A stretch of 64,000 bases of DNA, from positions 1-64,000 of the forward strand of contig JAGATN010000034.1 in the NCBI GenBank assembly GCA_017621225.1. Reading direction: 5' to 3'. The notes under the pieces are model-generated. The model saw nothing but the letters and a program-made list of their open reading frames with translations, was not told the origin of the DNA and searched no databases. The stretch comes from Muribaculaceae bacterium. Lineage in GTDB: Bacteria > Bacteroidota > Bacteroidia > Bacteroidales > Muribaculaceae. Position numbers and translations under genes: made by a program. Shown here piece by piece: positions 2,755 to 56,235 of the stretch (positions are counted from its first letter, which is position 1; each line of letters starts with the position of its first letter).

Positions 2755-4563
2755 ATGATTACATTTGAAGACCTTGGCGTAAGGGAAGATTTGCGCCGCG
2801 CAATCGAAGAACTAGGATTCGAAAACCCAATGCCCGTGCAGGAAAAGGTGATACCGCATCTGCTTAACGAAGAAGGCGACGTAGTTGCACTTGCGCAGAC
2901 CGGTACAGGCAAAACCGCTGCATTCGGGCTTCCGGTGCTTCAGCGCATCGACCCTGAAAAGAAGGTCCCTCAGGCATTGATATTGTCGCCCACGCGCGAG
3001 CTCTGCTTGCAGATAGGCAGCGATCTTGCCGATTTTTCAAAATACATACCGTCGGTCAACGTGCTTCCGGTGTATGGAGGCTCGAGCATAGAAAGTCAGA
3101 TCAGGTCGTTGCGCGCGGGCGTACAGATAATCGTGGCCACCCCGGGGCGTCTGATCGACCTGATAAAACGCGGAGTGGTCGATCTTGAAAACGTGCACAC
3201 CGTAGTGCTTGACGAGGCTGACGAGATGCTCAATATGGGCTTTCTCGACTCGATAGACGAAATATTGTCGTATGTGCCCGACGACCGCAAGATGCTCATG
3301 TTTTCGGCTACGATGCCCAACGAGATAGCCAAGATAGCCAAAAAGTATATGCATGACCCCGTGGAATTCGTGATAGGCAATCGCAACGAGGGTGCCGCCA
3401 ACGTAAAGCATGTGTACTATATGGTCAATGCCCGCGACAAATATCTTGCACTTAAACGAGTGGCCGATGACTCGCCGAACATATATGCCATAATATTCTG
3501 CCGCACACGTCGCGACACTCAGGAGGTGGCCGACAAACTGATACAGGACGGATATAATGCCGATGCGCTGCACGGCGACCTCTCGCAGCAGCAACGCGAC
3601 ATAGTGATGAAGAAATTTCGCGACAGGGTGATATCCATGCTCGTGGCAACCGATGTGGCCGCGCGCGGACTTGACGTTGACGACCTTACGCACGTGATAA
3701 ATTACGGTCTGCCCGACGATACGGCCGTATATACGCACCGCTCGGGACGTACCGGGCGCGCCGGAAAGACAGGCGTGTCGGTAGCCATAATACATTCACG
3801 CGAAAAAGGCAAATTGCGCGAGATTGAAAAGAAGCTCGGCAAGACGTTTGAGCGCAAAATGGTCCCCACGCCACAGCACATCATCGAAAAGCAGCTTTAC
3901 AATCTGGCCGACAGGATAGAGCGTGTGAAGGTCGACGACAACGAAATTGACAAATACATGTCGGGCGTAAGCCGAAAGCTCGGATGGCTTACGCAGGAAG
4001 ATTTGTTGAAAAGGGTGTTGTCGCTCGAATTCAACAGGTTGCTCGATTACTACAAGGATGCGCCTGAGATTGATAACATAGACGAAAAATCGAAGAAGGG
4101 CAAGGCCGACAAGGATGACGGCAGCTCGAAGCCGCGAACCGACAAGGAGAAGGATCGCCGAACGGCATCGAAAGGCATGGCCCGAATATACGTCAATGCC
4201 GGCAAGAGCGACGGATTCTATGCCGGAAACCTTATAGAGATGCTCAACCATGCCGTGCCGGGTAAGCGCGTCGACGTAGGACGCATTGACCTCCTGCCGG
4301 GATATTCGCTGTTTGACGTTCCCAAAGCCGATGCCCGCAGGGTAGTGGAGGGGCTTACCGGCAGCGACTTCATGGGCAAGCGCGTGTATTGTGAAGTGGC
4401 CGACCCCGACAAAAATTATGCGCGTGCGGCCGCCCGAAAAAAGCGCGAAGCGGTTAACGAGGCATTTCAACAGGCCACCGAAACGCAATATGAGTATTTC
4501 ATGAAGAAAAGTCGCGGCGGCTCAAAGAAGAAATCGACAAAACCGTCAAAAAAGAAACATTGA
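2755..4563 (+). CDS. deaD: DEAD-box ATP-dependent RNA helicase (CsdA/DbpA-like)
   Basis: Unwinds structured RNA with ATP; family members act in ribosome assembly, RNA decay and cold adaptation. All core motifs are readable: Q-motif region (ENPMPVQ), motif I AQTGTGKT at 47-54, motif II DEAD at 153-156, motif III SAT, and motif VI HRSGRTGRAG. A charged linker leads to a DbpA-type RNA-binding domain (about 468-545, starting MARIYVNAGKSDGFYAGNL). The protein ends in a lysine-rich tail. Length 602 is usual for this subgroup in Bacteroidetes. The ATG at 2755 follows an A-rich leader and a -7 element at 2726. The DUF3256 gene starts 26 bases after the stop and may be co-transcribed. Confidence 0.95.
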   Translation: MITFEDLGVREDLRRAIEELGFENPMPVQEKVIPHLLNEEGDVVALAQTGTGKTAAFGLPVLQRIDPEKKVPQALILSPTRELCLQIGSDLADFSKYIPSVNVLPVYGGSSIESQIRSLRAGVQIIVATPGRLIDLIKRGVVDLENVHTVVLDEADEMLNMGFLDSIDEILSYVPDDRKMLMFSATMPNEIAKIAKKYMHDPVEFVIGNRNEGAANVKHVYYMVNARDKYLALKRVADDSPNIYAIIFCRTRRDTQEVADKLIQDGYNADALHGDLSQQQRDIVMKKFRDRVISMLVATDVAARGLDVDDLTHVINYGLPDDTAVYTHRSGRTGRAGKTGVSVAIIHSREKGKLREIEKKLGKTFERKMVPTPQHIIEKQLYNLADRIERVKVDDNEIDKYMSGVSRKLGWLTQEDLLKRVLSLEFNRLLDYYKDAPEIDNIDEKSKKGKADKDDGSSKPRTDKEKDRRTASKGMARIYVNAGKSDGFYAGNLIEMLNHAVPGKRVDVGRIDLLPGYSLFDVPKADARRVVEGLTGSDFMGKRVYCEVADPDKNYARAAARKKREAVNEAFQQATETQYEYFMKKSRGGSKKKSTKPSKKKH

Positions 4564-4589
4564 GAAAAAACGCTTAATCCTCAAAAAAG

Positions 4590-5240
4590 ATGCATATGAA
4601 GTCAGTGAAAACATTATTGGTAACGATGGCATTGGCCGTATCGGGTAGCTTCGGCGCGTATGCCCAGCTCACGGCATCCGACGCTTTCGTATCGGCACCC
4701 GCCGCTGTGTTCCCATTGCTTAATAACAGTACCCGACTCGATATGATCGATTATTTCAACAGCGGTTCGTCGACAACGTCGACAAACGCCCTCAAAGGCA
4801 AGTCGCGCATCGTGTCGCTCGAAACGTCAAAACTGAGCATCGACATGACCGACGCATCATCGTATGAGCTCGTGATACTCCCTAAAAAGGGGGGAGGTTC
4901 GTTGATAGGCCTCATATCGACGGTTGCCACGCCGGCTCCAGACAGTAATCTCGGCGTTTATAGCGATGACTGGAAAAGCAATATCACCGAAACGGTGTTC
5001 AAGAAACCGGTGCTTGTCGACTGGCTGTCGGCCGAGGGCAAGAAGAATAAGGATGAAGTGGAAATGCTGGTGCCCTTCCTGCTCATAAGCTACGATTTCG
5101 ATCCGAAGTCGGGGGTGCTTACGCTTACCAACAACACCAAGCAATTTCTTTCGGAAGATGTGTATAGCATCGTGTCGCCTTACTTTTTGCCGTCGTTGAA
5201 ATACAAATGGGATGGCAAGGCGTTCAGTGCCTTAAAATGA
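4590..5240 (+). CDS. Secreted DUF3256-family protein
   Basis: A 216-residue exported protein of unknown function. It has a signal peptide (about residues 1-25, ending GAYA-Q) and then a single soluble domain matching my recollection of the Bacteroidetes-specific DUF3256 family in length and layout. Features are an N-terminal LTASDAF.SAP segment, a central SYELVILPKKGGG segment and C-terminal beta-rich repeats. No catalytic motif is evident. It lies 26 bases after the helicase gene and 12 bases before xseA, so the three may form one transcript. An alternative start at 4596 would shorten the protein by two residues only. Confidence 0.75.
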   Translation: MHMKSVKTLLVTMALAVSGSFGAYAQLTASDAFVSAPAAVFPLLNNSTRLDMIDYFNSGSSTTSTNALKGKSRIVSLETSKLSIDMTDASSYELVILPKKGGGSLIGLISTVATPAPDSNLGVYSDDWKSNITETVFKKPVLVDWLSAEGKKNKDEVEMLVPFLLISYDFDPKSGVLTLTNNTKQFLSEDVYSIVSPYFLPSLKYKWDGKAFSALK

Positions 5241-5252
5241 CGGAGAGCCGCA

Positions 5253-6560
5253 ATGCATAACGATGTTTTGACATTGCGTCAGCTCAACAGGCGCATCGCC
5301 GGATTGCTTTCGGTGCCCGAAACGCAAAATGTGTGGGTGACGGCCGAGTTGAGCGACATGCGCGTCAGCGGCGGTCACTGCTATATGGAGCTCGTAGACA
5401 AAAACGAATCTACGGGCGCCATCGAAGCGCGCCTGCGCGGCATAATCTGGGCCACGACCTATTCGCGACTGAGCGTGGACTTTTTTGCCGTGACCGGCCG
5501 TCCGCTTTCAACCGGGATGAAAGTTATGGTGCGAGGTGGAGTCAACTATCACGCCTCGTTTGGCATGTCGTTCGTAATAACGGCCATAAATCCCGAATTT
5601 ACCATGGGCGACGTGGAGCGTCGCCGGCGCGAGATACTCGACCGACTTACGCGCGAAGGCATTGCCGACGACAACCGAAAATTGGAATGGGCCGCCGTGG
5701 CCAACCGCATAGCCATAATATCGGCAAAAGGGGCTGCCGGGTATGGCGATTTTATGAATCAGCTGTATGGCAATGACTCGCATCTACGTTTCAGCACCCG
5801 CCTGTTTCAGGCCGTGATGCAGGGCGAACGGACGTCGCGCTCCGTAATCGATGCGCTCGAGGCTATAATGGCCGACGTGGACAGCTGGGATTGCGTGGTG
5901 ATAATACGCGGTGGCGGCGCCACGAGCGATCTTGCCGCTTTCGACGATTATGACCTCGCGGCAAGCATCGCCCAGTTTTCGCTCCCGGTAATAGTGGGCA
6001 TCGGGCATGAACGCGACGTGACGGTGCTCGACTATGTGGCAAATATGAGGGTGAAAACCCCGACTGCGGCAGCCGAGTGGCTTATCGGCAAGGGGGAGGC
6101 GGCCCTTGACGCAATACGTCGCATGGCCTCTGACATAGCCCACGCGCTGTCCGACAAAATCGGTGGGAGCCGTGCGCAATTGGCATATTACGAAGGTCTG
6201 ATACCGGTGGCTCCGGTAGGGGTGGTCGACAGGGCTAAAAACCGATTGGCCCAGTGCGCCATGAGCGTATCGGTGATAAACGGACGCCGGCTGAGCGCGG
6301 AGTTGGGGCGCCTTTCGCATTATGCCGATATGGTGAAAATGGCCGATGCCAACCGCATTAAGGGCGAATATGACCGCTTGTCGGCGCAAGCCAAACTGTT
6401 GGAAGTGCTGTCGCCGACGGCTACGCTCAAGCGCGGTTATACGATAACCTGCGTAAACGGGAAAGCGCTGAAAAGCGTGTCGGACATATCGGAGGGCGAC
6501 GTAATGGAAACCATATTGCCAGACGGTCGGATAACGTCGCGCGTGGCAGGCGAAAAGTAG
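5253..6560 (+). CDS. xseA: Exodeoxyribonuclease VII large subunit
   Basis: Catalytic subunit of exonuclease VII, which degrades single-stranded DNA in both directions in the cytoplasm and works in repair together with several XseB subunits. The N-terminal OB-fold (VWVTAELSDMRVSGGHCYMEL) is followed by the exonuclease domain with hallmark segments RGGGATSDLAAFDDYDLA and VGIGHERDVTVLDYVA..KTPTAAAE. A helical region and the C-terminal RGYTI motif complete it. Length 435 is typical. The small subunit gene lies 3.3 kb downstream at 9840, separated by two exported sugar-metabolism genes. Confidence 0.96.
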   Translation: MHNDVLTLRQLNRRIAGLLSVPETQNVWVTAELSDMRVSGGHCYMELVDKNESTGAIEARLRGIIWATTYSRLSVDFFAVTGRPLSTGMKVMVRGGVNYHASFGMSFVITAINPEFTMGDVERRRREILDRLTREGIADDNRKLEWAAVANRIAIISAKGAAGYGDFMNQLYGNDSHLRFSTRLFQAVMQGERTSRSVIDALEAIMADVDSWDCVVIIRGGGATSDLAAFDDYDLAASIAQFSLPVIVGIGHERDVTVLDYVANMRVKTPTAAAEWLIGKGEAALDAIRRMASDIAHALSDKIGGSRAQLAYYEGLIPVAPVGVVDRAKNRLAQCAMSVSVINGRRLSAELGRLSHYADMVKMADANRIKGEYDRLSAQAKLLEVLSPTATLKRGYTITCVNGKALKSVSDISEGDVMETILPDGRITSRVAGEK

Positions 6561-43254: not shown

Positions 43255-45018
43255 ATGAAAGTAAAGAATTTTTATCTGCACGTTTCGGCTATTCTGATGC
43301 TCGTTGTCGGAATAGGACTGAATGCGGTGGCTGCGGGCGAAAAATCGTCGCAATGGAATCGCGATGCCGATGTGCGTAAGGCCGACTATATTTTTCTCGA
43401 AGGGTTGCGTCAGCATGAATTGGGGAAAAACGATGCTTACCATGAGCTGTTGAGCCATTCGTACAGCCTTAACGATACCGACCGCTACGTGGGGTTTGAG
43501 TACGGCATTTTGATGATGACGCTTCTGCAGGACGACAGCACATACTTGGAGAAGGGTTACAATCTATTGAAGGATTACGTCGTGAACAATCCGTCTGACT
43601 TTTATAACAACGTGATGTTTGTTTCGGTGGCCAACAGCATTGGCAAGGTCGACGATGCCATTTCGGTGTTGGATCGCCTGCACCGCAACAATCCCGGCCG
43701 CAGCGAGGTGTCGGCACGATATGCCGGGGTGCTCGCGCAGACCGGCAAGAGCGAAAACATCGATAAGGCGATAGCTCTTTTCGATGCGATAGAGGTGGCC
43801 GAAGGGCGAAGCATTCCGCTGTCGTCGCAAAAAATACAGCTGTATCTCATGCGCGAGGACACCGCCTCGATTCTAAAGGAAGCTTACGGGCTGTTGGCTT
43901 CGTCGCCCCGCAGGGTGGACTACAATGTGTTCGTGGGCGACATGCAGATGCTTTTCGGGTCGCGCGACTCCGCGCTGCGCTATTACGACAAGGCCGTTGA
44001 AATAGATCCTACCAATGGCGTGGCATATTATTCGCGCGCCAATTACTATCGCGCCATAGGCGACAGCGTGGCCTACGACAAGGAGGTGTTTCAGGCCCTG
44101 CGTCAGGAAAATCTCGAACTTGAGCCCAAACTTGAAATATTGAAGGATTACGTTTCGGCCCTGTACACCGACTCGTTGCAGCAGCCCCGCATAAGCAGCT
44201 TGTTCCGTGAACTGATCGAGCAGCATCCGCACGAGGTGGCAATACACAATCTGTATCGCGACTATCTGATTGCGATAAACGATTATGCCGGCGCGGCCGA
44301 GCAATCGAGCTATTCGCTCGACATCGATCCGTCGGACGTGCGGCAGTGGATAGCCTTGTCGAGCCTGTACATGCAGATACGCGATTTCGACAAGTCGCTC
44401 GACGCGGCCAATCGCGGATTACACTATTTCGAATCGAATCCCGATTTATACATGCTTGCGGCTACCGGCTTGACGCAGCTCGACAGGCATGACGAGGCCA
44501 TGGACTATCTGAAGCGCGGACTACAATATGTCGATTCGACCAATGCCGAAGTGATGTCGGAATTCGATACGGCCATAGGCGATACATACTACTCGGCCGG
44601 GGAGCTCGACAGCGCATTCGTGTATTACGACAGGGCCATTGAGCTTAATCCGCTTAACCTGACGGCCCTGAACAACTGTGCCTACTATCTGGCTTGCGAG
44701 GACAAGGATCTCGACAGAGCCGAAAAGCTGATAACGGTGGTGGTCGACGAGCGCCCCGATGACTCAACCTCGCTCGACACCTATGCGTGGGTACTGTTTA
44801 AGAAAAAGAATTATGAGAAGGCCAAAGAGATGATAGAGAAAGCGATTGAAAACGACGATGACCCGTCGAGCGAACTCTACGACCATGCCGGCGACATAAT
44901 GTTCATGAATCGCCAGCCCGATGAGGCTCTTGACTATTGGAAGGCGGCATTGGATTTGGACCCTGACAATGATTTGTTGCAAAGGAAAGTAAAACATAAA
45001 ACCTACTTTTATAAATGA
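43255..45018 (+). CDS. Exported tetratricopeptide-repeat protein
   Basis: A 587-residue protein with a signal sequence (about 1-27, ending VAA) and many TPR-like helical pairs. Clear units are RDSALRYYDKAVEIDPTNGVAYYSRA and DSAFVYYDRAIELNPLNLTALNN. TPR arrays are protein-protein scaffolds; no enzymatic motif is seen. It starts 12 bases after dut, and its stop overlaps the next gene by four bases. With the DUF4292 lipoprotein and EnvC-like gene this suggests an envelope assembly role. The order dut-TPR-DUF4292-LytM is, as I recall, common in Bacteroidales. Confidence 0.86.
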   Translation: MKVKNFYLHVSAILMLVVGIGLNAVAAGEKSSQWNRDADVRKADYIFLEGLRQHELGKNDAYHELLSHSYSLNDTDRYVGFEYGILMMTLLQDDSTYLEKGYNLLKDYVVNNPSDFYNNVMFVSVANSIGKVDDAISVLDRLHRNNPGRSEVSARYAGVLAQTGKSENIDKAIALFDAIEVAEGRSIPLSSQKIQLYLMREDTASILKEAYGLLASSPRRVDYNVFVGDMQMLFGSRDSALRYYDKAVEIDPTNGVAYYSRANYYRAIGDSVAYDKEVFQALRQENLELEPKLEILKDYVSALYTDSLQQPRISSLFRELIEQHPHEVAIHNLYRDYLIAINDYAGAAEQSSYSLDIDPSDVRQWIALSSLYMQIRDFDKSLDAANRGLHYFESNPDLYMLAATGLTQLDRHDEAMDYLKRGLQYVDSTNAEVMSEFDTAIGDTYYSAGELDSAFVYYDRAIELNPLNLTALNNCAYYLACEDKDLDRAEKLITVVVDERPDDSTSLDTYAWVLFKKKNYEKAKEMIEKAIENDDDPSSELYDHAGDIMFMNRQPDEALDYWKAALDLDPDNDLLQRKVKHKTYFYK

Positions 45019-45881
45019 ACAAAGTAAGTAGAGAAATAACGGGTTGGCTGTTGCGCGTATTTGTCGTGGCAGCCTTCGTTGCAGCTATGCATTCGTGTAG
45101 AGGCAATCGTTCGGCTGTTAACGTTAACGAGCCGGCGGAGGTGGTTACGGTAAGCTCCAATCTCGACGAGGCGTTCCGCTCCATGACCGCCGAATATGGA
45201 AAGTGGGAGCGCGTGCGCATTCCGGTTTCGGTGAAGCTCACCTCGCCCAAAAATTTCTCGCTGTCGGGCACGGCTACTTTCGTGCGCGGCAAGAGCATCC
45301 AATTTTCCATGCGCGTGCTCGGCATGGAGGTGGCCACGCTTTTCGTGACGCCCGATTCGGTGATAGCCATCGAGAAGTTTCACAAGTATTATGTGGCGGA
45401 GAGCCTGAGAAGCTTTTTGGACGGCTTTCCGGTGTCGATCGACAATGTGTCTGACTTGCTGACCGGACGTGCTTTCATCCTGGGCCAAAATTCGCTGTCG
45501 GCCTCCGACGTGAGCAAAGTGAAGCTCTCGTCAGACCCCGCGAGGCGAGGATGGACAATGACGCCTCCGCAAGTGTCGTCGAGCGGCGATTACAGTTTCT
45601 CGTTTTCGCCCTACAACATATTGCAAACGCTCAAGATAGCGCTCGACGGCAGCAATGCCACCGTCGATTATGCCGGGGTGGAGAGCACCGCGTATGGCCC
45701 TATGGCTGCCGGCGTGATTCTCTCGGCGCATTCCGGACGTCTCGCGGTGGAGGCCACGATAGAGTGGAATCTGAAGCGCGCGCGCTGGGACAGCGAAGTG
45801 GAGGAGCGCCCGGTGAGCATACCGCGAGGATATACGCGCGTGAAATCGTCGGATCTGTCGAAACTCATTAAGAACATGTGA
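45015..45881 (+). CDS. DUF4292 lipoprotein
   Basis: A 288-residue periplasmic lipoprotein (lipobox MHSC, Cys near 28). The soluble part is beta-rich (SVKLTSPKNFSLSGTATFVRGKSIQFSMRVLG split over adjacent strands) and looks like the LolA/LolB-type half-barrel proposed for DUF4292, so lipid or lipoprotein binding is a reasonable inference. It overlaps the TPR gene by four bases and the LytM gene start by one base (TGATG), indicating translational coupling in an envelope operon. Confidence 0.8.
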   Translation: MNKVSREITGWLLRVFVVAAFVAAMHSCRGNRSAVNVNEPAEVVTVSSNLDEAFRSMTAEYGKWERVRIPVSVKLTSPKNFSLSGTATFVRGKSIQFSMRVLGMEVATLFVTPDSVIAIEKFHKYYVAESLRSFLDGFPVSIDNVSDLLTGRAFILGQNSLSASDVSKVKLSSDPARRGWTMTPPQVSSSGDYSFSFSPYNILQTLKIALDGSNATVDYAGVESTAYGPMAAGVILSAHSGRLAVEATIEWNLKRARWDSEVEERPVSIPRGYTRVKSSDLSKLIKNM

Positions 45882-47116
45882 TGGCTATGATGCGACGACT
45901 GTCTGTGGCCTTGCTCTGCGTGATGATTTGCTCTATGCTGACATCGGCGCAGCAACGTGACATCAATAAGCTTAAACAGGAGCGCGAGGCTACCAAACGT
46001 GAAATAAAGGAGACCTCGCGAAAAATCACTACCAACGAGCGCGAAACGCAGCGCAATCTCAGCCGACTTAATTCGCTTCGGGCCGAAATTACGGAAAAAA
46101 ACGTGGAAATCGGGGCCATTCAGCTCGATGTCGACTCGATTGACATGCGCGTGAAGGCAATGGCCGACTCAATAAGCGGCCTTGAGGCGCAGAGGGCAAA
46201 ACTGCGCAATGCCTATGCCGCGTCGCTCCGCAAAACTCAGCCGAGCCTCTCGTCGGTCAATCTCATGTCGTTCGTGTTCTCGTCAGAGTCGTTCGGGCAG
46301 GCATATCAGCGCATGCGATACATAAAGGAATTCTCAAATTGGCGCAAGCGAAAGACGGCCGAGATAAACGAAATAACCGACAGGCTCGCTCTGCGCAAAC
46401 AGTCGTACGATTCGCTTCAGCAACAGCGCCTCGCCGTGCTGTCGCAACTTAGCAACGCCCGAAATCGCCTGCAAGCCACCCACAACGAAACCAATCAGCT
46501 TGTGGCCAAACTCAAAAAGGAGGGTGGGGCATTGCGCAAGCTGCTTAAGCAGAAAGAGCAGAGAGCCAGGGCGCTCGATCGTGAAGTGGATCGCCTGATA
46601 GCGGCCGAGCAACAGAAATCGTCGGCATCGGGCTCGAAGAAATCGTCGGGCAAGAAAGCCGGAACCGGCGTTGCCGGCACAGCTGCCGACAGGGCGCTCA
46701 CGGGAAGCTTCGAGAGCAACAAGGGGCGGCTGCTGTTCCCCGTCAGCGGATCGTATCGCATAGTGCGACCATTTGGCCGTCACAAGCATCCCGACCTTGA
46801 GCATGTGGAGACCGAAAACAGCGGCATCGACATCGAAGTGGGGCCGGGGAGCATGGCGCGCGCCATTTTCAAAGGCAAGGTGTCGGCCATATTCCAGCAG
46901 CCCGGATTCAACACCATAGTCATGGTAAGGCACGGCAACTATCTGTCGATATATGCCAACCTCGCGTCGATAAACGTGAAGATGGGCGACGTAGTCAACA
47001 CCGGCCAGTCGATAGGCACCATATTCGCCGACCCCGACGAGGGTAACAGCGCCATACTGCACTTCGAGCTCCGCAAGGAGCGCACGAAGCTCAATCCCAC
47101 CTTATGGGTAAAATGA
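45881..47116 (+). CDS. EnvC-like murein hydrolase activator (degenerate LytM/M23 domain)
   Basis: A periplasmic protein with a signal peptide (ending LTSA-QQ), a long coiled coil (about 25-235, rich in K/E/R) and a C-terminal LytM domain (about 285-411). In active M23 peptidases zinc is held by HxxxD and HxH. Here the first site reads NSGID (His replaced by Asn) and the second ILHFEL (first His replaced by Ile). Two of the ligands are thus missing, as in E. coli EnvC, which activates amidases instead of cutting murein. The ATG at 45881 overlaps the upstream stop; GTG 45878 or ATG 45887 are alternatives. Confidence 0.87.
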   Translation: MAMMRRLSVALLCVMICSMLTSAQQRDINKLKQEREATKREIKETSRKITTNERETQRNLSRLNSLRAEITEKNVEIGAIQLDVDSIDMRVKAMADSISGLEAQRAKLRNAYAASLRKTQPSLSSVNLMSFVFSSESFGQAYQRMRYIKEFSNWRKRKTAEINEITDRLALRKQSYDSLQQQRLAVLSQLSNARNRLQATHNETNQLVAKLKKEGGALRKLLKQKEQRARALDREVDRLIAAEQQKSSASGSKKSSGKKAGTGVAGTAADRALTGSFESNKGRLLFPVSGSYRIVRPFGRHKHPDLEHVETENSGIDIEVGPGSMARAIFKGKVSAIFQQPGFNTIVMVRHGNYLSIYANLASINVKMGDVVNTGQSIGTIFADPDEGNSAILHFELRKERTKLNPTLWVK

Positions 47117-47122
47117 TGCCTG

Positions 47123-48589
47123 ATGCAGCGCGTAGCCGATAAAACCGATTCGTATCGATCGATATTGCGCGCCACGTCGGCTTTTGGCGGCATCGAGATT
47201 GTGAAGCTGCTCGTCAATCTCGTGCGCGGAAAGTTCCTGGCACTGATTCTCGGCCCCGAAGGGATGGGACTGGCGGCCATGTTCAACTCGTTGGCCGACA
47301 CCTTCAAGCAATTCTCAAAAGCCGGCACCGATGCGGCCATAGTGAAAGCCGTGGCCGGAGCCGACGCGTCGCGCTCCGACCTGGCCGATGTGGTTGCGGC
47401 GGTGCGCCGTATGTCGGCGGTGCTTGCCGCCGTCGGGGCTGTTGCGTGCGCGGCATTGTCGGGATGGCTCAGCTACGTGTCGTTTGGCCGATACGACATG
47501 TGGCCGTGGTTCGTGTTGCTCGGCGTGGCCGTGGCGGCGGGCGTCGTGGCTTCGGCCGATGCGTCGCTTCTTCAGGGGCTGCATGACGTCAGGCGGCTGT
47601 CGCGCAGCTCGCTTGTCGGAGCCGTCAGCGGTCTGTGCGTCGGCGTTCCGCTATATTGGTTCATGGGCACCGATGGCATAGTGCCGGCCATAATTGCGGC
47701 ATCGTTGGCCTCGCTCCTGTTTTTCAGGCTGTCGTTGCGGTCGGCCATGAAGGGATGCCGCAGCCGCTTCGACAGGGCCGTCCATATGCCTTTGGTCAGG
47801 CGCATTCTCGCCTCGGGGGGCGTGATGATGCTCTCTGGCGCAATGACGGCAGCGGTGGCGTTTGCGCTCAACGCTTTGGTGCGATACGCGGGCTCGATGG
47901 GCGACGTGGGTCTGTATCAGTCGGCCAACTCCGTTGCCAATCAATACGTTGGCATGGCGTTCACGGCTATGTCGCTCGACTTTTTCCCTCGGCTTGTGCG
48001 CGCGGTGGGCGACAAGCTCCGCATGCGCGAGCTCATCAGCCGTCAGACAGAGATAGTGTCGCTTGTCATCACGCCGTTGTCGCTGCTGCTCATGCTCACG
48101 GCTCCGCTGGTCATCGAGCTGCTTTTTTCCGACGACTTCGCTCCGGCAGTGCCGCTGATGCGGCTCATGGCGTTCGGAATGATAATGAAGGGGATAGGCT
48201 ATCCGCTCGGCTATGTGGCGTTTGCCTGCGACAATAAGCGCGTGTTTGTTTTGATGGAGTGCTTGGGGGCCAATCTGCTCGACTTTGCCTGCATGGCCGG
48301 CGGATATGCGTTGGCGGGCCTCCACGGGCTCGGAATGGGGTTTTGCGCGTCGTGTGCGCTCACGTTGGTGATGTATTATGTGGTCAATCGCCGTCTGTAT
48401 GGCTTGCGATATTCAGCCGGTGCGCGTCGTGCCGTCGTGGCCGCATTGGGGTTTGGCTTACCGTCGTTTGCGGTATGCGTGGCGGCGTTGTATGTGCCTC
48501 AGTGGCAATGCGTGGCCGTGTGGGTGACGGCGATTGTTTTCGTAGTGTCGGTGGGGTGGAGCGTGTTGCGCGTTGCGCGTCGTGGTTAG
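47123..48589 (+). CDS. Polysaccharide flippase (oligosaccharide translocase, Wzx/MurJ-like)
   Basis: An inner-membrane protein of 488 residues with about 12-14 predicted helices and the N-terminal pattern of Wzx-type O-antigen/lipid-linked sugar flippases (RATSAFGGIEIVKLLVNLVRGKFLALILGP split by charged residues, then GMGLAAMFNSL). It probably flips an undecaprenyl-linked glycan from the cytoplasmic to the periplasmic side. It starts six bases after the EnvC-like gene, making it the last gene of the dut operon. No glycosyltransferases lie nearby, so the glycan is unknown. Confidence 0.85.
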   Translation: MQRVADKTDSYRSILRATSAFGGIEIVKLLVNLVRGKFLALILGPEGMGLAAMFNSLADTFKQFSKAGTDAAIVKAVAGADASRSDLADVVAAVRRMSAVLAAVGAVACAALSGWLSYVSFGRYDMWPWFVLLGVAVAAGVVASADASLLQGLHDVRRLSRSSLVGAVSGLCVGVPLYWFMGTDGIVPAIIAASLASLLFFRLSLRSAMKGCRSRFDRAVHMPLVRRILASGGVMMLSGAMTAAVAFALNALVRYAGSMGDVGLYQSANSVANQYVGMAFTAMSLDFFPRLVRAVGDKLRMRELISRQTEIVSLVITPLSLLLMLTAPLVIELLFSDDFAPAVPLMRLMAFGMIMKGIGYPLGYVAFACDNKRVFVLMECLGANLLDFACMAGGYALAGLHGLGMGFCASCALTLVMYYVVNRRLYGLRYSAGARRAVVAALGFGLPSFAVCVAALYVPQWQCVAVWVTAIVFVVSVGWSVLRVARRG

Positions 48590-48819
48590 TCGTTGGTTTT
48601 TTAGTCGTTGGTCGGTTAGTTTTTTTGTGTCAAGTTTGGAAATTGTATGGGTTAGTCGGTTGGTCATAAGTGTTTTAGATGCTTTTTTTGACTCGTTTTT
48701 ATGAGGCTGTATAAAAAGTTTTATATATAAAAAGTTTTATATATGACGATTTTTATGGATGGTTTGCTCCGGGTGGGGAAAATATTGCGGGGAATGGGCG
48801 ATTTGTAGCGAGAATGTGC
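48590..48819 (+). other. AT-rich non-coding stretch with short repeats at the island edge
   Basis: No gene is seen. Variants of ttagtcgttggt recur near 48586, 48601 and 48650, and a 16-bp tandem pair lies at 48711-48742. Base composition drops to AT-rich compared with the flippase gene, marking the left edge of the accessory island. Confidence 0.55.
48711..48742. repeat. Two perfect tandem copies of a 16-bp unit
   Basis: ataaaaagttttatat at 48711-48726 and again at 48727-48742. Each unit is itself an inverted repeat (ataaaa-ag-ttttat core). Confidence 0.85.
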
Positions 48820-48827
48820 TACATTTG
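48820..48827 (+). promoter_or_regulatory. -7 element of the fic pseudogene
   Basis: TACATTTG four bases before the original ATG at 48832; a nearly leaderless arrangement. Confidence 0.5.
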
Positions 48828-48831
48828 CATT

Positions 48832-49613
48832 ATGGAAAGCGAGTTGCATTAATTAGTAGGCCGATACCGTGCGTTGGGCATTGACAGGCAGATAGACTAC
48901 GATAAGTTCTATCTGTATTCAATCATAACCCATTCCACGGCCATCGAGGGCTCCACGATTACGGAGCTTGAAAATCAGATAATGTTTGACAATGGCATTG
49001 CCTTCAAGGGCAAGACACTTGTTGAGCAGAATATGAATCTTGATCTGAAGGCTGCCTACGAGCGCGTTTTGACATATGCACGGGGCCCCATGTGGATGTC
49101 ACCGTCGACCGTCTCAAGGAGCTGTCGGCGCTGACTATGAAAAACACCGGCTCGGAATATCACACCGCATTGGGCGACTTTTCGTCGGCCAATGGCGACA
49201 TTCGCCTGCTCAACGTCACGGCGGGCATTGGCAGACGGTCGTACATGGCTTTCAACAAGGTGCCGCAGAAGCTTAAGGAGTTTTGCGACGCGCTCAACGC
49301 TTCACGTCGCGAGGCTGCATTGATGACCATTGAGCAGCTCTACGAAAAGAGTTTTGACGCTCACTATCATCTCGTTACCATACATCCGTGGGCCGACGGA
49401 AACGGACGGATGGCGCGCCTGCTGATGAACTGGCTGCAATTTGAATTCGGCCTGATACCGTCGCGAATATTCAGCTGCGACAAGGAGGAATACATAAAGG
49501 CTCTCGTAGCCACTCGCGAGTGTGGCGACCTGAACATATTTCGCCGCTTCATGACCCAATCCACCATCGGCCATCTGTCGAGCGACATAGCAGCTTACGA
49601 AGCATCCATCTAA
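48832..49613 (+). pseudogene. Class II Fic-domain (AMP transferase) gene, disrupted by a stop codon and a frameshift
   Basis: Fic proteins transfer AMP or related groups to target proteins. The original frame starts MESELH at 48832 and meets TAA at 48850-48852. It then reads on as LVGRYRALGIDRQIDYDKFYLYS and includes the N-terminal inhibitory motif STAIEG. Near 49082-49089, in a GGGGCCCC run, it shifts frame (one base missing) and continues PHVDVTVDRLKELSALTMKN. The full catalytic motif HPWADGNGRMARLLMN lies in the second part. Two separate lesions argue for a true pseudogene, though the frameshift alone could be a homopolymer error. A TTG at 48874 could in theory restart translation. Confidence 0.86.
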
Positions 49614-49618
49614 TTCCC

Positions 49619-49681
49619 TTACAGGCAGTGGGCAAGCGTGTCGGCTTCTATCTGCTGGAAGGTGAATTTGCCAAAGTCCAT
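49619..49681 (-). pseudogene. Truncated start of a GNAT-like acetyltransferase gene fused to a foreign 3' end
   Basis: An ATG at 49681, two bases after the stop of the 54-residue gene, opens MDFGKFTFQQIEADTL. This resembles the first residues of Bacteroidetes GNAT-type proteins that follow such small genes. After about 15 codons it runs into AHCL-stop. The last 15 bases (49619-49633) are identical to the 3' end of the ATPase gene at 51207-51221, so the frame looks like a recombination junction. The GNAT identity is inferred from a very short stretch and context. Confidence 0.5.
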
Positions 49682-49683
49682 AA

Positions 49684-49848
49684 TTACAAAGGGAATGTGC
49701 TTATGGCTTTGAACGCCTCATACGCTTTTCTTGCCGCTTCCTTTTCCGACTTGCTGACAGGAGCGGGATTTGCCATTCTTTTGGCAAATTTTACTGCGTC
49801 CTTGCCCCTTAACACCGGGGTTTCTTTGATGAGTCGTGCCTTAAACAT
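49684..49848 (-). CDS. Small antitoxin-like protein (54 residues) with KETPVLRGKDA motif
   Basis: A reverse-strand frame starting MFKARLIKETPVLRGKDA and ending AYEAFKAISTFPL. Its ATG overlaps the stop of the upstream Panacea-partner gene by eight bases, which indicates co-translation. The TPVL-x-GKDA-x-x-F motif resembles small Bacteroidetes proteins that I recall preceding GNAT acetyltransferase or RelE-like genes in toxin-antitoxin-like pairs; its downstream partner here is cut off. The protein is basic and helical in its second half. Function is inferred only. Confidence 0.65.
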   Translation of the reverse strand: MFKARLIKETPVLRGKDAVKFAKRMANPAPVSKSEKEAARKAYEAFKAISTFPL

Positions 49849-50597
49849 TATCCATACTTGCTAAGATTCCTTTCTCCATAATCTCTTGCAATGGAATTTT
49901 CTTTAAAATGTCTTGATAAGTAGTGTAAAAATCATTATCGAGTCCAAGATAAACAATATTATCATGAAGTTCCTCTATGGCACTTATATGTGAATGCAAT
50001 TTGCATTCCTTATCAGAGCAATCTGATGTTATCTTTTTTATTCGCTCCAACTTATTCAGCAATTCATCATACTGGAATAAACCTTTTGTAGTTGGTTGGA
50101 TTTGATAATTTGTTTTCTTTGAAGGTTGTATGTTATGTTCAGGATCTAACAATACAATGTGGAATATTGAAGAATCTCTGTCGAAATAACCTACAATACG
50201 ACCGGTGCCTTTTGTTATAGAAAATTGCATTATCGGAAATTCAGCTTCATTGTCTAATATTTCTTTTGGCAGCCATTCCAAGTCTTTTCGCTGAATAGGA
50301 ATATTTTTAGCTCCCCAATCTATCGGGTGACATCGTAATGCTTCACTTCCTTTATTTTCTTCTAATACTTCTTGCGGTGACATCTTACCTAAAGCCCCCA
50401 ATCTTTCAAGAAGCCCTATATGCCATCCTTTTGAACATGCCCCAACCTGAAAATTGGGTATTTGTTTAAAGTGAGAGAAGGAAAAAGGTAATCTTCCTTC
50501 TCTTTAGTTCGTTTTCTTGTTCCCTGGTAACTAATGATTTATTCCCGTATTTAGGCGAATCGAGTTTAAGATTTAATAGTTTCCCATTTTTTTCCAT
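49841..50597 (-). pseudogene. Panacea-linked partner gene, about 251 codons, interrupted by a +1 frameshift
   Basis: The intact part (from about 50480 to the stop at 49841) reads FSHFKQIPNFQVGACSKGW, CHPIDWGAKNIPIQRKDL, and TGRIVGYFDRDSSIFHIVLL. The N-terminus lies in another frame from ATG 50597 (MEKNGKLLNLKLDSPKYGN, then EQENELKRRKIT). The two join perfectly if one base is removed from the five-base A-run at 50482-50486 (T-run on the coding strand). The start overlaps the Panacea gene end by 32 bases, giving coupled translation. The position suggests the toxin or effector of the pair. I do not recognise the fold; the segment IFHIVLLDPEHN resembles a motif seen in other small nuclease-like toxins. 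The frameshift may be real decay or a homopolymer error. Confidence 0.72.
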
Positions 50598-51054
50598 AAT
50601 ACTCTATCATTAGTTTGGAGGCAATAACTTTGTCGCAATGTACATTTACATTTAAATCTCCTCGTGTTTTTATCCAAGGCATTTCGTTATGTGACAATCG
50701 TTCTAATTCTGCGCCACTATATTTAAGATAGTTCTCTAATATAAAGTCAACAAATTCAGCGTCTTCTGACGATAAATTCACATTATGATTCAGGCAATCA
50801 TCAATGTTAATTTCAGAATATAGATATTTTGTAGGATTAAACCGATTATAGATCTCTCTATTTACCGGACCATGAACCCATGCTTCAAACTCGCCGTCAA
50901 ACATAGGTTTTTTATAGATCCCATACGACCATGCTTGAACATAATACAATAATTTCTGCAACTTTAAATTAATTAAAGAAGCAAATTTATCTTCCGATTT
51001 TACTCGTAAGATAATATAATCTGTTATATCATGGATTGAGTTTATCTGAATTAT
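50566..51054 (-). CDS. Panacea/SocA-domain (DUF4065) antitoxin-like protein
   Basis: Panacea-domain proteins are antitoxins that pair with many unrelated toxins. The domain core is unmistakable: NLKLQKLLYYVQAWSYGI, then MFDGEFEAWVHGPVNREIYNRF, and a C-terminal EFVDFILENYLKYSGAELERL. A TTG at 50961 would remove the conserved first helix. The coding frame extends upstream through IHDITDYIILRV to about 51054, just after a -7 element at 51074, but no ATG exists there; an ATA codon stands where ATG is expected. The protein may start at ATT/ATA or have lost its start. About 162 residues, AT-rich codons, likely horizontally acquired. Confidence 0.8.
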   Translation of the reverse strand: MIQINSIHDITDYIILRVKSEDKFASLINLKLQKLLYYVQAWSYGIYKKPMFDGEFEAWVHGPVNREIYNRFNPTKYLYSEINIDDCLNHNVNLSSEDAEFVDFILENYLKYSGAELERLSHNEMPWIKTRGDLNVNVHCDKVIASKLMIEYYGKKWETIKS

Positions 51055-51073
51055 AACTATATCAGTTTCAATG

Positions 51074-51081
51074 CAAAGTTA
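51074..51081 (-). promoter_or_regulatory. -7 element of the Panacea operon
   Basis: Reverse strand TAACTTTG, about 20 bases before the inferred translation start at 51054. It would drive Panacea, its partner, the 54-residue gene and the GNAT remnant. Confidence 0.55.
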
Positions 51082-51169
51082 ATATCTTTTTATAAGATAA
51101 CAAAATAATGAATTGAATTGATGTTGCGGCTTGCCTATCTTATCCTATAAAGCACGGAAGGATTATCCG

Positions 51170-51198
51170 GATTTGCCCTGCAATGCGCAGGCAGTGGG
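51170..51198. repeat. Direct repeat with internal palindrome, ATPase gene 3' side
   Basis: gatttgccctgcaatgcgca (51170-51189) continuing with ggcagtggg. It contains the palindromic core cctgc-aatgc-gcagg (51177-51191). Near-identical copies lie on the other side of the ATPase gene at 52629-52659 and 52672-52700. Confidence 0.8.
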
Positions 51199-51206
51199 GT
51201 GGGGCT

Positions 51207-52565
51207 TTACAGGCAGTGGGCCATGTAGGCGGGGATGTAGAGGGTGTTGGCTTCTTTGTGCAGGTTTTTGGGGTGTATCACGATGGAATGGCCTATGCGG
51301 TCATGGAACGATTCCGAAAAGCGCGATAGCGATATGGTGGTGTAGCGGTCGGCCGACTTCACCTCGATGGGATATATCTTATAGTTGAGCTTGCTGTTGT
51401 TCGACAGTATGAAGTCAATCTCTATGTCGTTGCGATGCTTTTCGGCATTATATCGCGTATAGAAATAGAGCTTATGCCCCGACGCCACGAGCATCTGAGC
51501 TATTACGTTTTCGTAAAACATGCCCTCGTTTATCGACAGCTTGCCGAACAGAAGCTTTCGGTACAGCTCGTTGTCGGTTATCTCGTTTTCGTCGAACGTG
51601 TGGCTTATCAGCAGCCCCGTATCGCCCATGTAACACTTCACGAACGTGCGATCTTCGTTTAGCGACAGGCCAACGTTGGGGTTCGAGCAATTGAAGCACT
51701 CATTCACTATCATTGAGTCAGACAGCCAGAAAAACGTGTCGTGATATTTGGGAAACGTGGCACCCTTTTCCACTTGCGACAGCATGACCCTACGCTCCGA
51801 CTTCGACAGGAAGGCCGGAATTTGGTCGAATATCGAGAGCACGCTCGACCGATAGCCCGAGTTTATTTTCATTATGTCGTTGCGATACAGTGCCAGTATG
51901 TCGCGCTTTTCTATGTCGGCCTTCTCGAAATTGCGGTCGTTTTCCACGTAGGCCGACACGCTTTTGGGCATTCCTCCCACTATCATATACTGCCTGAACA
52001 GCAGCATGGCTTTGGAGTGCAGATTTTGCTCCACGGCCTTTCTATCGTCGAAACACTGCCGTATGTACGCCATCATTTGCGTTTCGCCCAAGGCCCACCC
52101 GAACTCCTCGAAGTCCATAGGGTACATCGACAGCCTTCTTTCTTCCGACGGGAGCGTTATGTGCCTAACGTTCTCTTTTATCGATATCAGCGAACCGGTT
52201 TCGATGTAGTCATAGCGTCCGTCCGACACAAGATATTTTATGGCCTGACGCGCTTTGGGAAACTGCTGTATCTCGTCGAATATTATTATCGACTCTCGCC
52301 TGTGGAGGCTCACGTTATATTCCGACGTTATGATCATAAAAAAGGTGTCGAGGTCGGTCATATAGTTGTTGAACGCCGACTTCACCACGTCGCTTGCCGT
52401 ATTGAAGTCGATGAGTATGTAGCTTTTGTATTCGTTTTTGGCGAATTCTGTTACTATTGTCGACTTTCCTATTCGTCGAGCGCCCTCAATCAGGAGCGCT
52501 TTTTCGCCCCGGCAGTTCTCTTTCCAGTCGAGGAGTTTTCGGTATATTTTGCGTTTAAACACCAT
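51207..52565 (-). CDS. AAA-family ATP-binding protein (AAA_14 plus DUF4143)
   Basis: A 452-residue predicted ATPase common in mobile and accessory regions of Bacteroidetes. Walker A is GARRIGKST (28-36) and Walker B/adjacent is SIIIFDEIQQFPKARQAI. The C-terminal DUF4143 domain follows (YLVSDGRYDYIETGSL, and near the end an endonuclease-like KIYPIEVKSADRYTT segment resembling a PD-(D/E)xK core). The role is unknown; proposals include defence or stress functions. It is intact, unlike its neighbours, with a good promoter at 52594-52625 and repeats on both sides. Its last 15 bases are duplicated at 49619. Confidence 0.88.
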   Translation of the reverse strand: MVFKRKIYRKLLDWKENCRGEKALLIEGARRIGKSTIVTEFAKNEYKSYILIDFNTASDVVKSAFNNYMTDLDTFFMIITSEYNVSLHRRESIIIFDEIQQFPKARQAIKYLVSDGRYDYIETGSLISIKENVRHITLPSEERRLSMYPMDFEEFGWALGETQMMAYIRQCFDDRKAVEQNLHSKAMLLFRQYMIVGGMPKSVSAYVENDRNFEKADIEKRDILALYRNDIMKINSGYRSSVLSIFDQIPAFLSKSERRVMLSQVEKGATFPKYHDTFFWLSDSMIVNECFNCSNPNVGLSLNEDRTFVKCYMGDTGLLISHTFDENEITDNELYRKLLFGKLSINEGMFYENVIAQMLVASGHKLYFYTRYNAEKHRNDIEIDFILSNNSKLNYKIYPIEVKSADRYTTISLSRFSESFHDRIGHSIVIHPKNLHKEANTLYIPAYMAHCL

Positions 52566-52593
52566 AAGTTGGATAATCTATTGTAGTACAACG

Positions 52594-52625
52594 CAAAATT
52601 AAGCATAATGTTTATAATGCGCAAG
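52594..52625 (-). promoter_or_regulatory. Promoter of the ATPase gene
   Basis: Reverse strand CTTG (52622-52625), 20 bp, TAATTTTG (52594-52601). One mismatch at -33; leader about 20 bases. Confidence 0.7.
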
Positions 52626-52628
52626 TAT

Positions 52629-52659
52629 CATTGTCCCGAATTACCCTACAATGCGCAGG
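52629..52659. repeat. Direct repeat, ATPase gene 5' side, copy 1
   Basis: Aligns with 51161-51191 over 31 bases with six mismatches by eye; core cctacaatgcgcagg at 52645-52659. Confidence 0.7.
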
Positions 52660-52671
52660 TATGGAAGTGGC

Positions 52672-52700
52672 GATTTGCCCTGCGATGCGCAGGAGTGGGG
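52672..52700. repeat. Direct repeat, ATPase gene 5' side, copy 2
   Basis: gatttgccctgcgatgcgca (52672-52691) then ggagtgggg. Differs from the 51170 copy by one substitution and one single-base gap. Confidence 0.8.
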
Positions 52701-52740
52701 GGGATGGGCGTTGGGTGCGTCGGGGCGTGTGTTGCGGCAT

Positions 52741-52770
52741 AAAAAAGAGGCGGCCATTGAGCCGCCTCTT
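52741..52770 (-). terminator. Terminator of the fimbrial operon
   Basis: A 10-bp stem (aagaggcggc 52745-52754 / gccgcctctt 52761-52770). On the reverse strand it is followed by six T (52741-52746), 30 bases past the last fimbrial gene. Confidence 0.85.
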
Positions 52771-52800
52771 GTCTGTTATGTCGGTGGGTTATGTCGATTA

Positions 52801-55800
52801 TTATTGGGTGCTGATGCAACGTATAAAGCAGGCATCTGCTCCACCGCTACTATATACATTGACATGCGATATTGAAATGAAATCGAATGTCTCGTAGTTT
52901 ATGTCCCATGCCGGATAACCTACATCATTAACGGAATATTCCTTGTCAAACCAATAAATGGCTCCCGGCGATCTAAATACATCAAGGAATAGAGGTGCTT
53001 CATATATGCCATATTTGTATAGACCGTAAGGGGTCTTGCCATCATTATTTTTTGTGGAAGTGGCATCAAAATAGCCCCAACGACTACTGCATGAATAACG
53101 GAGTAAACCATTAATGCCATTCACTAGGTGTTTTCTATGCCCATATCCTGATGACCCTATCGGGAAAAACAGATTTTTACCGGTCTTGGTGTTGTAAACG
53201 AAGCATCCTCTCATTCCTTTGGGGGATTGACCGTTACCTGACGTATACTTATATCCATAAGCCTCATCCATGGTTGTTGCCGTTTCGGTGGCGCCATCTC
53301 CATAGCATACGCCATATCCGTTTTTGATATGCCATGTGTTATCGTTGTCTTTATTAGGAGATAAGAATTCATTATAATCCGCTAACGTAGCAATTCGTCG
53401 GCCGCCACCCGGTGCGGGAAATGAACTCTTGGACGGATCAGAATTAGTGATTTTATCCCAATTCTGAGTTTTCTCAGTTGTTAATTTTAAATTCGTACCT
53501 CCATTATATAGGAAGTCATTAGGCGCAATTTTTACCCAGTTGGTTTTGCCTTTATTGACGTTGCTTTCCGATTTAATGCCAGTCCAGTTGCCAAAACGGA
53601 AAAGTGAGCCTTCGTCAAGTGGGTTATTTGCCAAATTGTTTTGGTCGTAGTTGTTGATCGTACACCATTTGCGTCCATTACCCACTATGTCGTCGGCAGC
53701 ATATCCTTGTCGTACAAATATTAGATGATGGCAAGAACAGTAGTTGTATTCCACTCTTATTATGGCATATCGTGGCTTGCTTGGTGTCGTTTTGTCAAAC
53801 TTGATGTAAAAATCAATAGGAGTATTGTCGATGCCCTCTATCGAATTTCGAGTCAATACCTCACCTGAATATTGGAAAGTATATTCTGCTTTTGTTGACT
53901 TGCTATCTTTGGGGATGTCTAATGTAACGAAGGGGGCACCTCCATTGTCGGCCTCTGTATCGCGAATCACGTAAGCACGCCACGGGCCGTCGCTTATAAG
54001 ATTCGTAAAATTGGTGGTATTATCATCCTTCAGAATTTTCATCTCTACATGGAAGTCTTCGTGATAAGAATCGCTATGAAATATGCCTTTGGGATTTACT
54101 ATTCGTCTGACTTGCTGTATTTCAATGTCCTGTGTCTTATTGCCGGTAAAGTCAACGTTATTGCTATCGAGAGTCTTTATTTCATTGGTCTCGCCATCGC
54201 GATATTTTATCACAACGTTGACTTTGGCCATGCGCTTGTATGTTGTGTATGGGTTGTTGCCCGTGTACGCCGTTTCTTTTATCATCTGACGCGCACGAGT
54301 CCATATCGGTATTTTAACAAAAAAAGTACCGTCGGCCCAACTTACGTGTGCCTTGTCTTCGTCTAATGCCTTGTATAAAGGCTCTTTGCTTATGCCAATA
54401 TTGGTATAAGAGCGATGCCCTAAATCATTGTTGTTATAATGGGGCTCGTTAAATACCGATGGCTCGTTATGTATTAATTCATTTCCCGTCGGGGTGGGTA
54501 TTCTCAATATGTTAGTAGGCTTTTTTAAACTGAGAAATCCATTCCAAGGTTTTCCGTTCACTATGTCAGGGGTGCTGAGAAATTTATAGTAATTTCCATA
54601 CATATTTTTGTCTGGTTGTGATGCTTTAATGGTAGTAAGGTCCGTTTGGTTTAACGTTCCGTTCCAACCACTCGTGCATTCATATGGAGCCCAATTATTC
54701 TCTATGATATTAGCATCAATGCTAATAATTTCGGAATTTTCAGGAGCATCGAATTCTATGGGAATCATAGTCGATTGTCCATAGAGATATGATATATAGA
54801 AAGGATGCGGGAAGCGAAGTTTGGGGTCGGTGTGCTTCTTATATTCTATGTGCCAGTCCACGTCGTTCGCCCATTTGTTGAACTTTAGCGTCAGCTTATA
54901 GTGATAGTTACGCTGCGTGTTATAGTCGAGACGGGTGTCTTTTCCGAGCATGAAGCGGTAGGTTATAGGCCCTTCGCCCTCTTTTTCGTTAAGGGATCCG
55001 TCGGTATTTTGTGCGCGGTAATAGGCTTGCACTTCGATGTACGAGCCATATTTTTTAGCATCTTTCCATGCTATGTTGGTTGGGTCGTAGCCGTCGGGAT
55101 ACGATACCACTTTATCGTCTATGTGCTTCTGATTTACCTGCTGGCGTTTGTCGGACGGGGTGTTTTCCTTTCCCTTGCCCTGCATGTTTTCAAACAGAAA
55201 CAGCGCATTGGTCTGCTCGGAGTGAAGTTGGGCAAGCTTTTGCTCCGAGGTAAGCTTATCGTCAGCCACTACCGCTTGGTCGAAGCCGTTGATGGGGTGG
55301 TCTTTCGACACATATCCGAGCCAGTCGGTGGTGTAGTTTTCGCCTGTGCCATATGTTATCATCTGGCCGGAGTTCTCTATCAGCTCGGTCGCCGGATCGT
55401 CGGCTTGGTTGGGATTGTCGGCACCGAGATAGCACTTAGCGGGGATGTCCTTTATGGTCACTGACTTAATGAATATCTGAACGCCATTATTTAGGTTAGT
55501 GCCATCGAACGCCACGGTGACTTTCGACACGGCACGTTTTATCCACGAGTGAACGTTTGACTGAACTTTGTCGATGAGTATTGTGGGGGCATTGAATCCC
55601 GCACTATCCAAACCCTTCTTGTTGCCATTCATTAGGGTGAAATACCCAAACATCTGATTGTTTGAGGCTATGTTGCCCTTATTCCACGTAAGCAGTTGGG
55701 TTTTCAATGCTTCTTCGCCCTGTTGGCATATCTCGTCGGATATCTGCCCCATGTTGGCTATGGCATACATCTTATATTCGCCATAGCGCAGACGGTCTTT

Positions 55801-56235
55801 TATGTTTTTCGTTCCGATGGAGAATTGTGCTTCGCCCGTGGTCGTTTCAGCCTGATGCTCGTTATTGCCGACGGCATCGTTGGGCGTCTCGGAGTTGCTT
55901 TTCGGGGTGTATTTATAATTTTCGAGTTGGTCGAGATTATTGTCCGGGTCATGAGTGTATGTGCGAATGAAATTGCCCTGTTTGTCATACACCACCACGC
56001 AGAGCGACTCGATGTTGCCTATGGCAGTGCCGGGCGTTCCGCCTGTGGGATTGGTGGCATTTTCGCCGGCGCGCGACGAGAGGTCGACGGGCATTTCGAA
56101 GAAGCTCACATTGGCATTGATCATTGCATAGCCGTCGCCTACTTTCGCGTTTTCGTACAATTCGTCGTCGACGCATGACGTGGCAGTGAGCAATAAGCTT
56201 AAAAGCAATAATATATTTAAAGGCTTAAATCTCAT
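52801..56235 (-). CDS. Large fimbria-associated lipoprotein (DUF4906-like, probable tip component)
   Basis: An 1144-residue exported lipoprotein (lipobox TATSC, Cys21, followed by acidic residues). The N-terminal region (about 35-230) has fimbrillin-like strands (YAMINANVSFFEMPV, NIESLCVVVYDKQGNFIRTY). Long Ig-like repeats follow, with a C-terminal domain containing RRIATLADYNEFL, GMRGCFVYN and NLFFPIGSSGYG. Last in the six-gene operon, 60 bases after its neighbour, it fits the tip or accessory protein of Mfa-type fimbriae. The DUF4906 label is by resemblance. Confidence 0.75.
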   Translation of the reverse strand: MRFKPLNILLLLSLLLTATSCVDDELYENAKVGDGYAMINANVSFFEMPVDLSSRAGENATNPTGGTPGTAIGNIESLCVVVYDKQGNFIRTYTHDPDNNLDQLENYKYTPKSNSETPNDAVGNNEHQAETTTGEAQFSIGTKNIKDRLRYGEYKMYAIANMGQISDEICQQGEEALKTQLLTWNKGNIASNNQMFGYFTLMNGNKKGLDSAGFNAPTILIDKVQSNVHSWIKRAVSKVTVAFDGTNLNNGVQIFIKSVTIKDIPAKCYLGADNPNQADDPATELIENSGQMITYGTGENYTTDWLGYVSKDHPINGFDQAVVADDKLTSEQKLAQLHSEQTNALFLFENMQGKGKENTPSDKRQQVNQKHIDDKVVSYPDGYDPTNIAWKDAKKYGSYIEVQAYYRAQNTDGSLNEKEGEGPITYRFMLGKDTRLDYNTQRNYHYKLTLKFNKWANDVDWHIEYKKHTDPKLRFPHPFYISYLYGQSTMIPIEFDAPENSEIISIDANIIENNWAPYECTSGWNGTLNQTDLTTIKASQPDKNMYGNYYKFLSTPDIVNGKPWNGFLSLKKPTNILRIPTPTGNELIHNEPSVFNEPHYNNNDLGHRSYTNIGISKEPLYKALDEDKAHVSWADGTFFVKIPIWTRARQMIKETAYTGNNPYTTYKRMAKVNVVIKYRDGETNEIKTLDSNNVDFTGNKTQDIEIQQVRRIVNPKGIFHSDSYHEDFHVEMKILKDDNTTNFTNLISDGPWRAYVIRDTEADNGGAPFVTLDIPKDSKSTKAEYTFQYSGEVLTRNSIEGIDNTPIDFYIKFDKTTPSKPRYAIIRVEYNYCSCHHLIFVRQGYAADDIVGNGRKWCTINNYDQNNLANNPLDEGSLFRFGNWTGIKSESNVNKGKTNWVKIAPNDFLYNGGTNLKLTTEKTQNWDKITNSDPSKSSFPAPGGGRRIATLADYNEFLSPNKDNDNTWHIKNGYGVCYGDGATETATTMDEAYGYKYTSGNGQSPKGMRGCFVYNTKTGKNLFFPIGSSGYGHRKHLVNGINGLLRYSCSSRWGYFDATSTKNNDGKTPYGLYKYGIYEAPLFLDVFRSPGAIYWFDKEYSVNDVGYPAWDINYETFDFISISHVNVYSSGGADACFIRCISTQ

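Follow-up and report, generated by a model that had tools for sequence, protein, structure and literature searches.

Two described groups of systems come closest to the locus reported here. PanAT pairs consist of a Panacea antitoxin gene followed by an overlapping partner gene and have a mobile, patchy distribution, as set out by Kurata et al. 2022 (PMC8832971). Ernits et al. 2023 (PMC10440598) describe AarT (NetFlax node D3) of Acinetobacter guerrae, which is paired with the AAA ATPase D29, is toxic, stops translation and is reported to have an mRNA-interferase fold with no HHpred hit. The same study presents AbiLii as an RloB/TOPRIM-type protein. We analysed 64,000 nucleotides of a Muribaculaceae bacterium (contig JAGATN010000034.1, positions 1 to 64,000; hereafter the window), where the reverse-strand genes panA and panT share the PanAT layout. 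This locus is probably a horizontally acquired, recently decayed Panacea (PanAT) type II toxin-antitoxin module with a RelE/HigB-like toxin.

The antitoxin gene panA occupies 50569..51045 (reverse strand) in an open frame at 51078-50569, with its stop codon at 50566-50568. The product is a standalone, SocA-like Panacea protein, matched by Pfam PF13274 (SocA_Panacea) at E 5.1e-24 and with a score of 85.8 bits, where the cut-off is 25.7. Where relatives have their start ATG, the window has ATA (51045-51043), a change additional to what the first-pass annotation, made from the letters alone, had reported. The ATG is present in all 11 relatives checked, several of them copies of one element, and the same frame offers no ATG, GTG or TTG upstream of the ATA codon. 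Since ATA can serve as a rare start codon, weak translation of panA is possible. Upstream, a promoter-like box, TTTG-N19-TAnnTTTG, which we take to be the Bacteroidales promoter consensus, is an exact match and intact (51074..51104, reverse strand). The same box is found in the intact relative L005, and the window holds 5 matches where 0.66 are expected.

The partner gene panT overlaps panA by 32 bases (50566..50597, reverse strand), its ATG at 50597 standing inside panA. The reading frame called for it has 186 codons (49841-50401), within a 220-codon open frame at 50503-49844, and a second frame at 50603-50469 holds the ATG. A family profile was built from three intact relatives. Its positions 1-40 match the upstream frame (50597-50478) at E 3.0e-11, and its positions 27-250 match the downstream stretch 50518-49847, which holds one stop, at E 8.2e-122. 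Because both frames match the profile in register, and beyond chance, the N-terminus of PanT is hidden by a frame break. The first frame (50478..50597) encodes the N-terminal residues, about 40 of them, and the second (49841..50503, stop codon 49841-49843) the remainder, both on the reverse strand. The frame changes relative to the intact relatives within 50478..50518, where the two matches overlap, and this stretch contains an A5 run at 50482-50486 (forward strand). The first-pass annotation had located the break at this run and had proposed a 251-residue protein from ATG 50597 with a coupled 32-base overlap. Its coordinates were right, and the intact relatives L005 and L012 indeed encode 251 amino acids from the equivalent ATG with the same 32-base overlap (in L005, panT ATG at 3908 and panA end at 3939). 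The overlap is also annotated in a Parabacteroides plasmid record, whose intact 251-residue protein is WP_004293874.1, and coordinates give 32 bases as well for L004, whose partner has 241 amino acids.

Ten loci encoding relatives were found when a collection of 84,980 species genomes was scanned with the downstream frame. Eight match at 85%, L012 matches at 71%, and L013 is interrupted. Seven of the eight share one identical protein, and L008 differs at its start. The plasmid collection, scanned in the same way, gave two records, from Parabacteroides (85%) and Vibrio (29%). A single PanT sequence is common to L005-L007, L009-L011 and L014 of the genome collection, to L015 and to L003/L017. 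The two-gene layout, with the partner within 100 nucleotides, is present in at least two species (L005 and L012), and the pair occurs also in L004. The long form is rare, being found in 3 of 295 genomes of the order and 2 of 395 of the phylum, with the window's own genome counted in both. No relative of long PanT was detected in viral contigs (scans with profile A1 and with the long PanT sequence P0001), and phage searches by tblastn and blastn likewise gave none. In L013 (Bacteroides faecis, 3890-5281), panT is interrupted beside a gene that is presumably IstB-like, and the remainder lies about 2.5 kb further on. Vibrio plasmid pL29 (L016, 235-1434 and 2571-4832) carries a Panacea gene with a split long-form partner, and this pair adjoins genes annotated as a retron Eco8 family effector and a reverse transcriptase.

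Intact relatives occur in Bacteroidales, mostly adjoining rteC- and mobC-like genes. The gene order in the Parabacteroides record is tet(Q), an ATP-binding protein, a sigma-54-type regulator, a DHFR-family gene, rteC, panA, panT, mobC, mobB and mobA, and we take this element to be CTnDOT-like. The window shares with these conjugative elements an AT-rich cassette (49840..51124) at 87% DNA identity to L005, L003 and L015, and nothing outside these limits matches these conjugative-element loci at E <= 1e-5. The guanine-plus-cytosine fraction of the cassette is about 0.32-0.36, compared with 0.40-0.65 in other segments of 45000-56000. Among the papers searched, from 2019 on, none joins Panacea antitoxins with Bacteroides integrative conjugative elements.

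As for the family to which the partner belongs, residues 24-157 of P0001 match phrog_8366 at E 4.7e-7. The match of L012 is weaker (0.0012), and L004 has none. A further relative in phrog_8366, L021, led to proteins of about 120-175 residues in plasmids, phages and genomes, and its short domain is matched by 69 plasmid records. The viral-contig scan with L021 found no relative.

The genes upstream of this family are recurrent. Among 38 distinct protein sequences, with the damaged copies (window, L008, L013) each counted separately and the Vibrio locus outside the set, the same-strand upstream gene encodes an AAA ATPase in 22 and a Panacea protein in 13, and the contig ends in 3. One or the other is thus present in 35 of the 35 with upstream sequence, as scored with hidden Markov models (HMMs) for Panacea and AAA built from six and four of the same loci. 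Pfam confirms Panacea in two proteins (window and L022) and AAA_21 in three (L021, L023 and L026). With gene starts called mechanically, an overlap of 4-41 bases with the upstream gene is seen in 26 of the 35 and a longer one in three, one sequence abuts that gene, and three are separated from it by gaps of 3-4 bases; the window and L008, with their damaged starts, stand at 164 and 179. The ATPase partners of the short family score best with PADLOC AbiLi in all four tested (E 1.7e-56 to 1.5e-88). Alternation between two unrelated regulators beside one small protein is what would be expected of a toxin. The adjacency to Panacea genes that the first-pass annotation had named as supporting evidence is recurrent. 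In Bacteroides phage BI-TP1, which was induced, gp23-gp24 (L022 2490-3420) are a Panacea gene overlapping a gene for a short RelE-like domain, and gp24 is annotated only as hypothetical. L023, L024, L025 and L026 are small plasmids with an AAA ATPase followed by a short toxin-like domain, and two of these ATPases, when tested, were AbiLi-like.

The domain common to both forms covers about residues 33-163 of an intact relative, which corresponds to 50108..50501 (reverse strand) in the window. Profile alignment by hhalign of this part of long PanT with six short proteins gave a probability of 96.2% (E 2.4e-9). With other subsets the probability was 89.6% (35 columns aligned) or 30% (17 columns), and the negative control, long PanT against PanA, gave 0.2%. 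With the short-family HMM, 4 of 6 real long-form sequences, including the downstream frame of the window, outscored all 3,000 shuffled sequences; both Vibrio pieces were absent among the matches listed in this test. The HMM misses these pieces (L016) at its threshold, and tblastn found that locus. A predicted RelE/HigB-like fold was obtained for a short relative, by model and fold match, and homology would extend it to long PanT, for which the AlphaFold2 model, from a three-row alignment, had a poor predicted local distance difference test score of 40.5. The nuclease-type fold guessed by the first-pass annotation agrees with this prediction. A conserved D..H motif lies at 50146-50144 and 50137-50135 (reverse strand), both residues being invariant in a 26-row alignment that includes two long forms. 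Downstream, a C-terminal extension of about 90 residues (49844..50107, reverse strand) is missing in all 24 short proteins aligned in A6. The PADLOC NsnC profile, at about positions 183-280, weakly matches 2 of 4 toxin proteins tested (E 0.0013 and 0.0095), which hints that NsnC may carry this domain in its C-terminal part.

The best reading of PanT is an extended form, borne by conjugative elements, of an AarT-like translation inhibitor with a RelE fold. In an intact pair, PanA would bind PanT and directly neutralise it, the 32-base overlap coupling translation of the two genes. Should PanA be lost or altered, with mobile-element loss or phage infection as putative triggers, the RelE/HigB-like domain of PanT would be freed, and its putative RNase activity would halt translation by cutting mRNA, probably at the ribosome. 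The tail of about 90 residues and any element-specific role are parts beyond this explanation.

L008, whose panA/panT overlap is altered, is open over its full length with no standard in-frame start until further down, and the Vibrio partner begins just before the conserved domain. These two lean towards the condition that the first-pass annotation saw as damaging to its proposal, homologues starting at the downstream frame only, which is not what the intact relatives do. The N-terminal domain lacks obvious canonical RelE catalytic residues, which suits an alternative in which the C-terminal residues are the active part, as another enzyme or for target binding, and the RelE-like domain is a mere scaffold or antitoxin dock. 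All three long forms that were aligned carry the extension, and its best sequence match in the PDB has E 0.91. We regard this alternative as unlikely, since short members consist of the N-terminal domain alone and still stand beside Panacea or ATPases, and since the D and H are invariant in the 26-row alignment with its two long forms. Moreover AarT, thought to belong to the same family, is toxic, according to PMC10440598.

The decay of the window copy can be followed in both genes by comparison with L005, using nonsynonymous (dN) and synonymous (dS) substitution rates. PanA has 92% amino acid identity to the L005 copy (dN 0.035, dS 0.60, dN/dS about 0.06). The first panT frame has dN 0.062 and dS 0.61 (dN/dS about 0.10, in a short frame), and the second, with 88% amino acid identity, has dN 0.065 and dS 0.97 (dN/dS about 0.07). 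These ratios are low in PanA and in both PanT frames, so purifying selection acted on the two genes during most of the time since they diverged from L005, and the damage is probably recent. The reading frames of the window copy are not intact as in a PanAT pair, and it looks like a decaying remnant, not a working pair. No working toxin is expected from it because both genes are damaged, the toxin being out of frame and the antitoxin start changed. The low dN/dS of both panT frames would suit a sequencing or assembly error, with the partner actually intact, and the break does fall at a short homopolymer in an assembly available without reads. We judge an error rather improbable, as a run of five A is short for a homopolymer error, a substitution has altered the antitoxin start codon too, and beside the pair a GNAT gene is truncated and a Fic gene broken. 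The frameshift is probably real.

The first-pass annotation had suggested an undescribed toxin class, and a mechanism unlike RelE is favoured by the following: Pfam finds nothing above chance for the window frames and no family at E <= 1 for P0001, PADLOC matches neither the window frames nor P0001, and the long partner is annotated "hypothetical protein" in the Parabacteroides plasmid record. In further searches, sequence comparison with the PDB gave nothing or chance-level matches, and no viral model was matched by Foldseek at E <= 0.001. NCBIfam MAG6450_fam, listed as a conserved hypothetical in the one paper found to name MAG6450, matches weakly (E 0.0009-0.014, below the cut-off) in 9 of the 11 partner proteins or pieces scanned, the exceptions being L022 and the short first frame of the window. 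In Table 1 of PMC8832971, a study with 88 T clusters, none of the toxin types in the ten PanAT pairs is recognisably that of the partner, a comparison confined to this table. We nevertheless find such a class doubtful, given the family link, the pattern of partners and the RelE-like predicted fold of the short relative, and the toxin is probably not wholly new. Likened by description, the PanT domain fits the AarT/D3 toxin family as presented in PMC10440598, and L023, a plasmid pair from Acinetobacter, is arranged like AarT/D29. The AAA ATPase pairing is found among the short relatives, for which an mRNA-interferase-like fold is predicted by model. Unlike AarT, the long form of the window is paired with Panacea and carries the C-terminal extension.

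RelE, HigB, YoeB and YafQ toxins have 5-15% sequence identity among the matches listed, and the invariant D..H near the C-terminal strand of the PanT family is unlike the textbook RelE catalytic set. With AbiL, the resemblance lies in the ATPase partners of the short family, which are similar to AbiLi, whereas RloB/TOPRIM-type AbiLii differs from the PanT domain. In the window, no AbiLi-type ATPase stands directly beside the partner; Panacea is there instead. Lastly, programmed frameshifting to yield the full-length partner, which the homopolymer inside a short overlap of frames might suggest, is very improbable, as a single frame encodes the protein in intact relatives and the PanA start is changed as well.

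With PanT read as a RelE/HigB-like toxin, a gene that a CTnDOT-like element carries under the label "hypothetical" gains a probable fold, a probable mode of action and a range of partners. Through the toxin family that they share, Panacea toxin-antitoxin systems are connected with AbiL-like phage defence, and the window copy illustrates how a module decays, with other broken toxin genes alongside. We offer tentatively the possibility that one RelE-fold effector family is swapped between Panacea antitoxins and AbiLi-like ATPases, PanAT and AbiL-like defence being two control circuits of one toxin. The long form between rteC and mobC would then add a C-terminal part giving a distinct target or sensor, and would act as a module for addiction or against phages in CTnDOT-like elements.

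Adjoining the panT stop is a remnant of a toxin-antitoxin pair (49638..49840, reverse strand) that we presume, from its sequence, to be of the GNAT type. Its 203 bases hold a short antitoxin-like protein and the start of the GNAT-like gene, with 93% and 89% identity to L076 and L077, where complete pairs encode a 52-residue antitoxin-like protein and a GNAT-like toxin of 176-177 residues. Homology to both stops at 49840, at the panT stop codon. The Fic gene (48804-49613) lies in two frames that overlap and has a shortened 3' end, and an intact relative in L078 has 336 residues (75% DNA identity). The cassette and the GNAT remnant are flanked by copies of a 15-base direct repeat, TTACAGGCAGTGGGC, at 49619..49633 (forward strand) and 51207-51221, a possible scar of insertion or recombination. 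The next gene upstream of the pair (51207-52565), with Pfam matches to AAA_14 and DUF4143, has the right copy as its 3' end.
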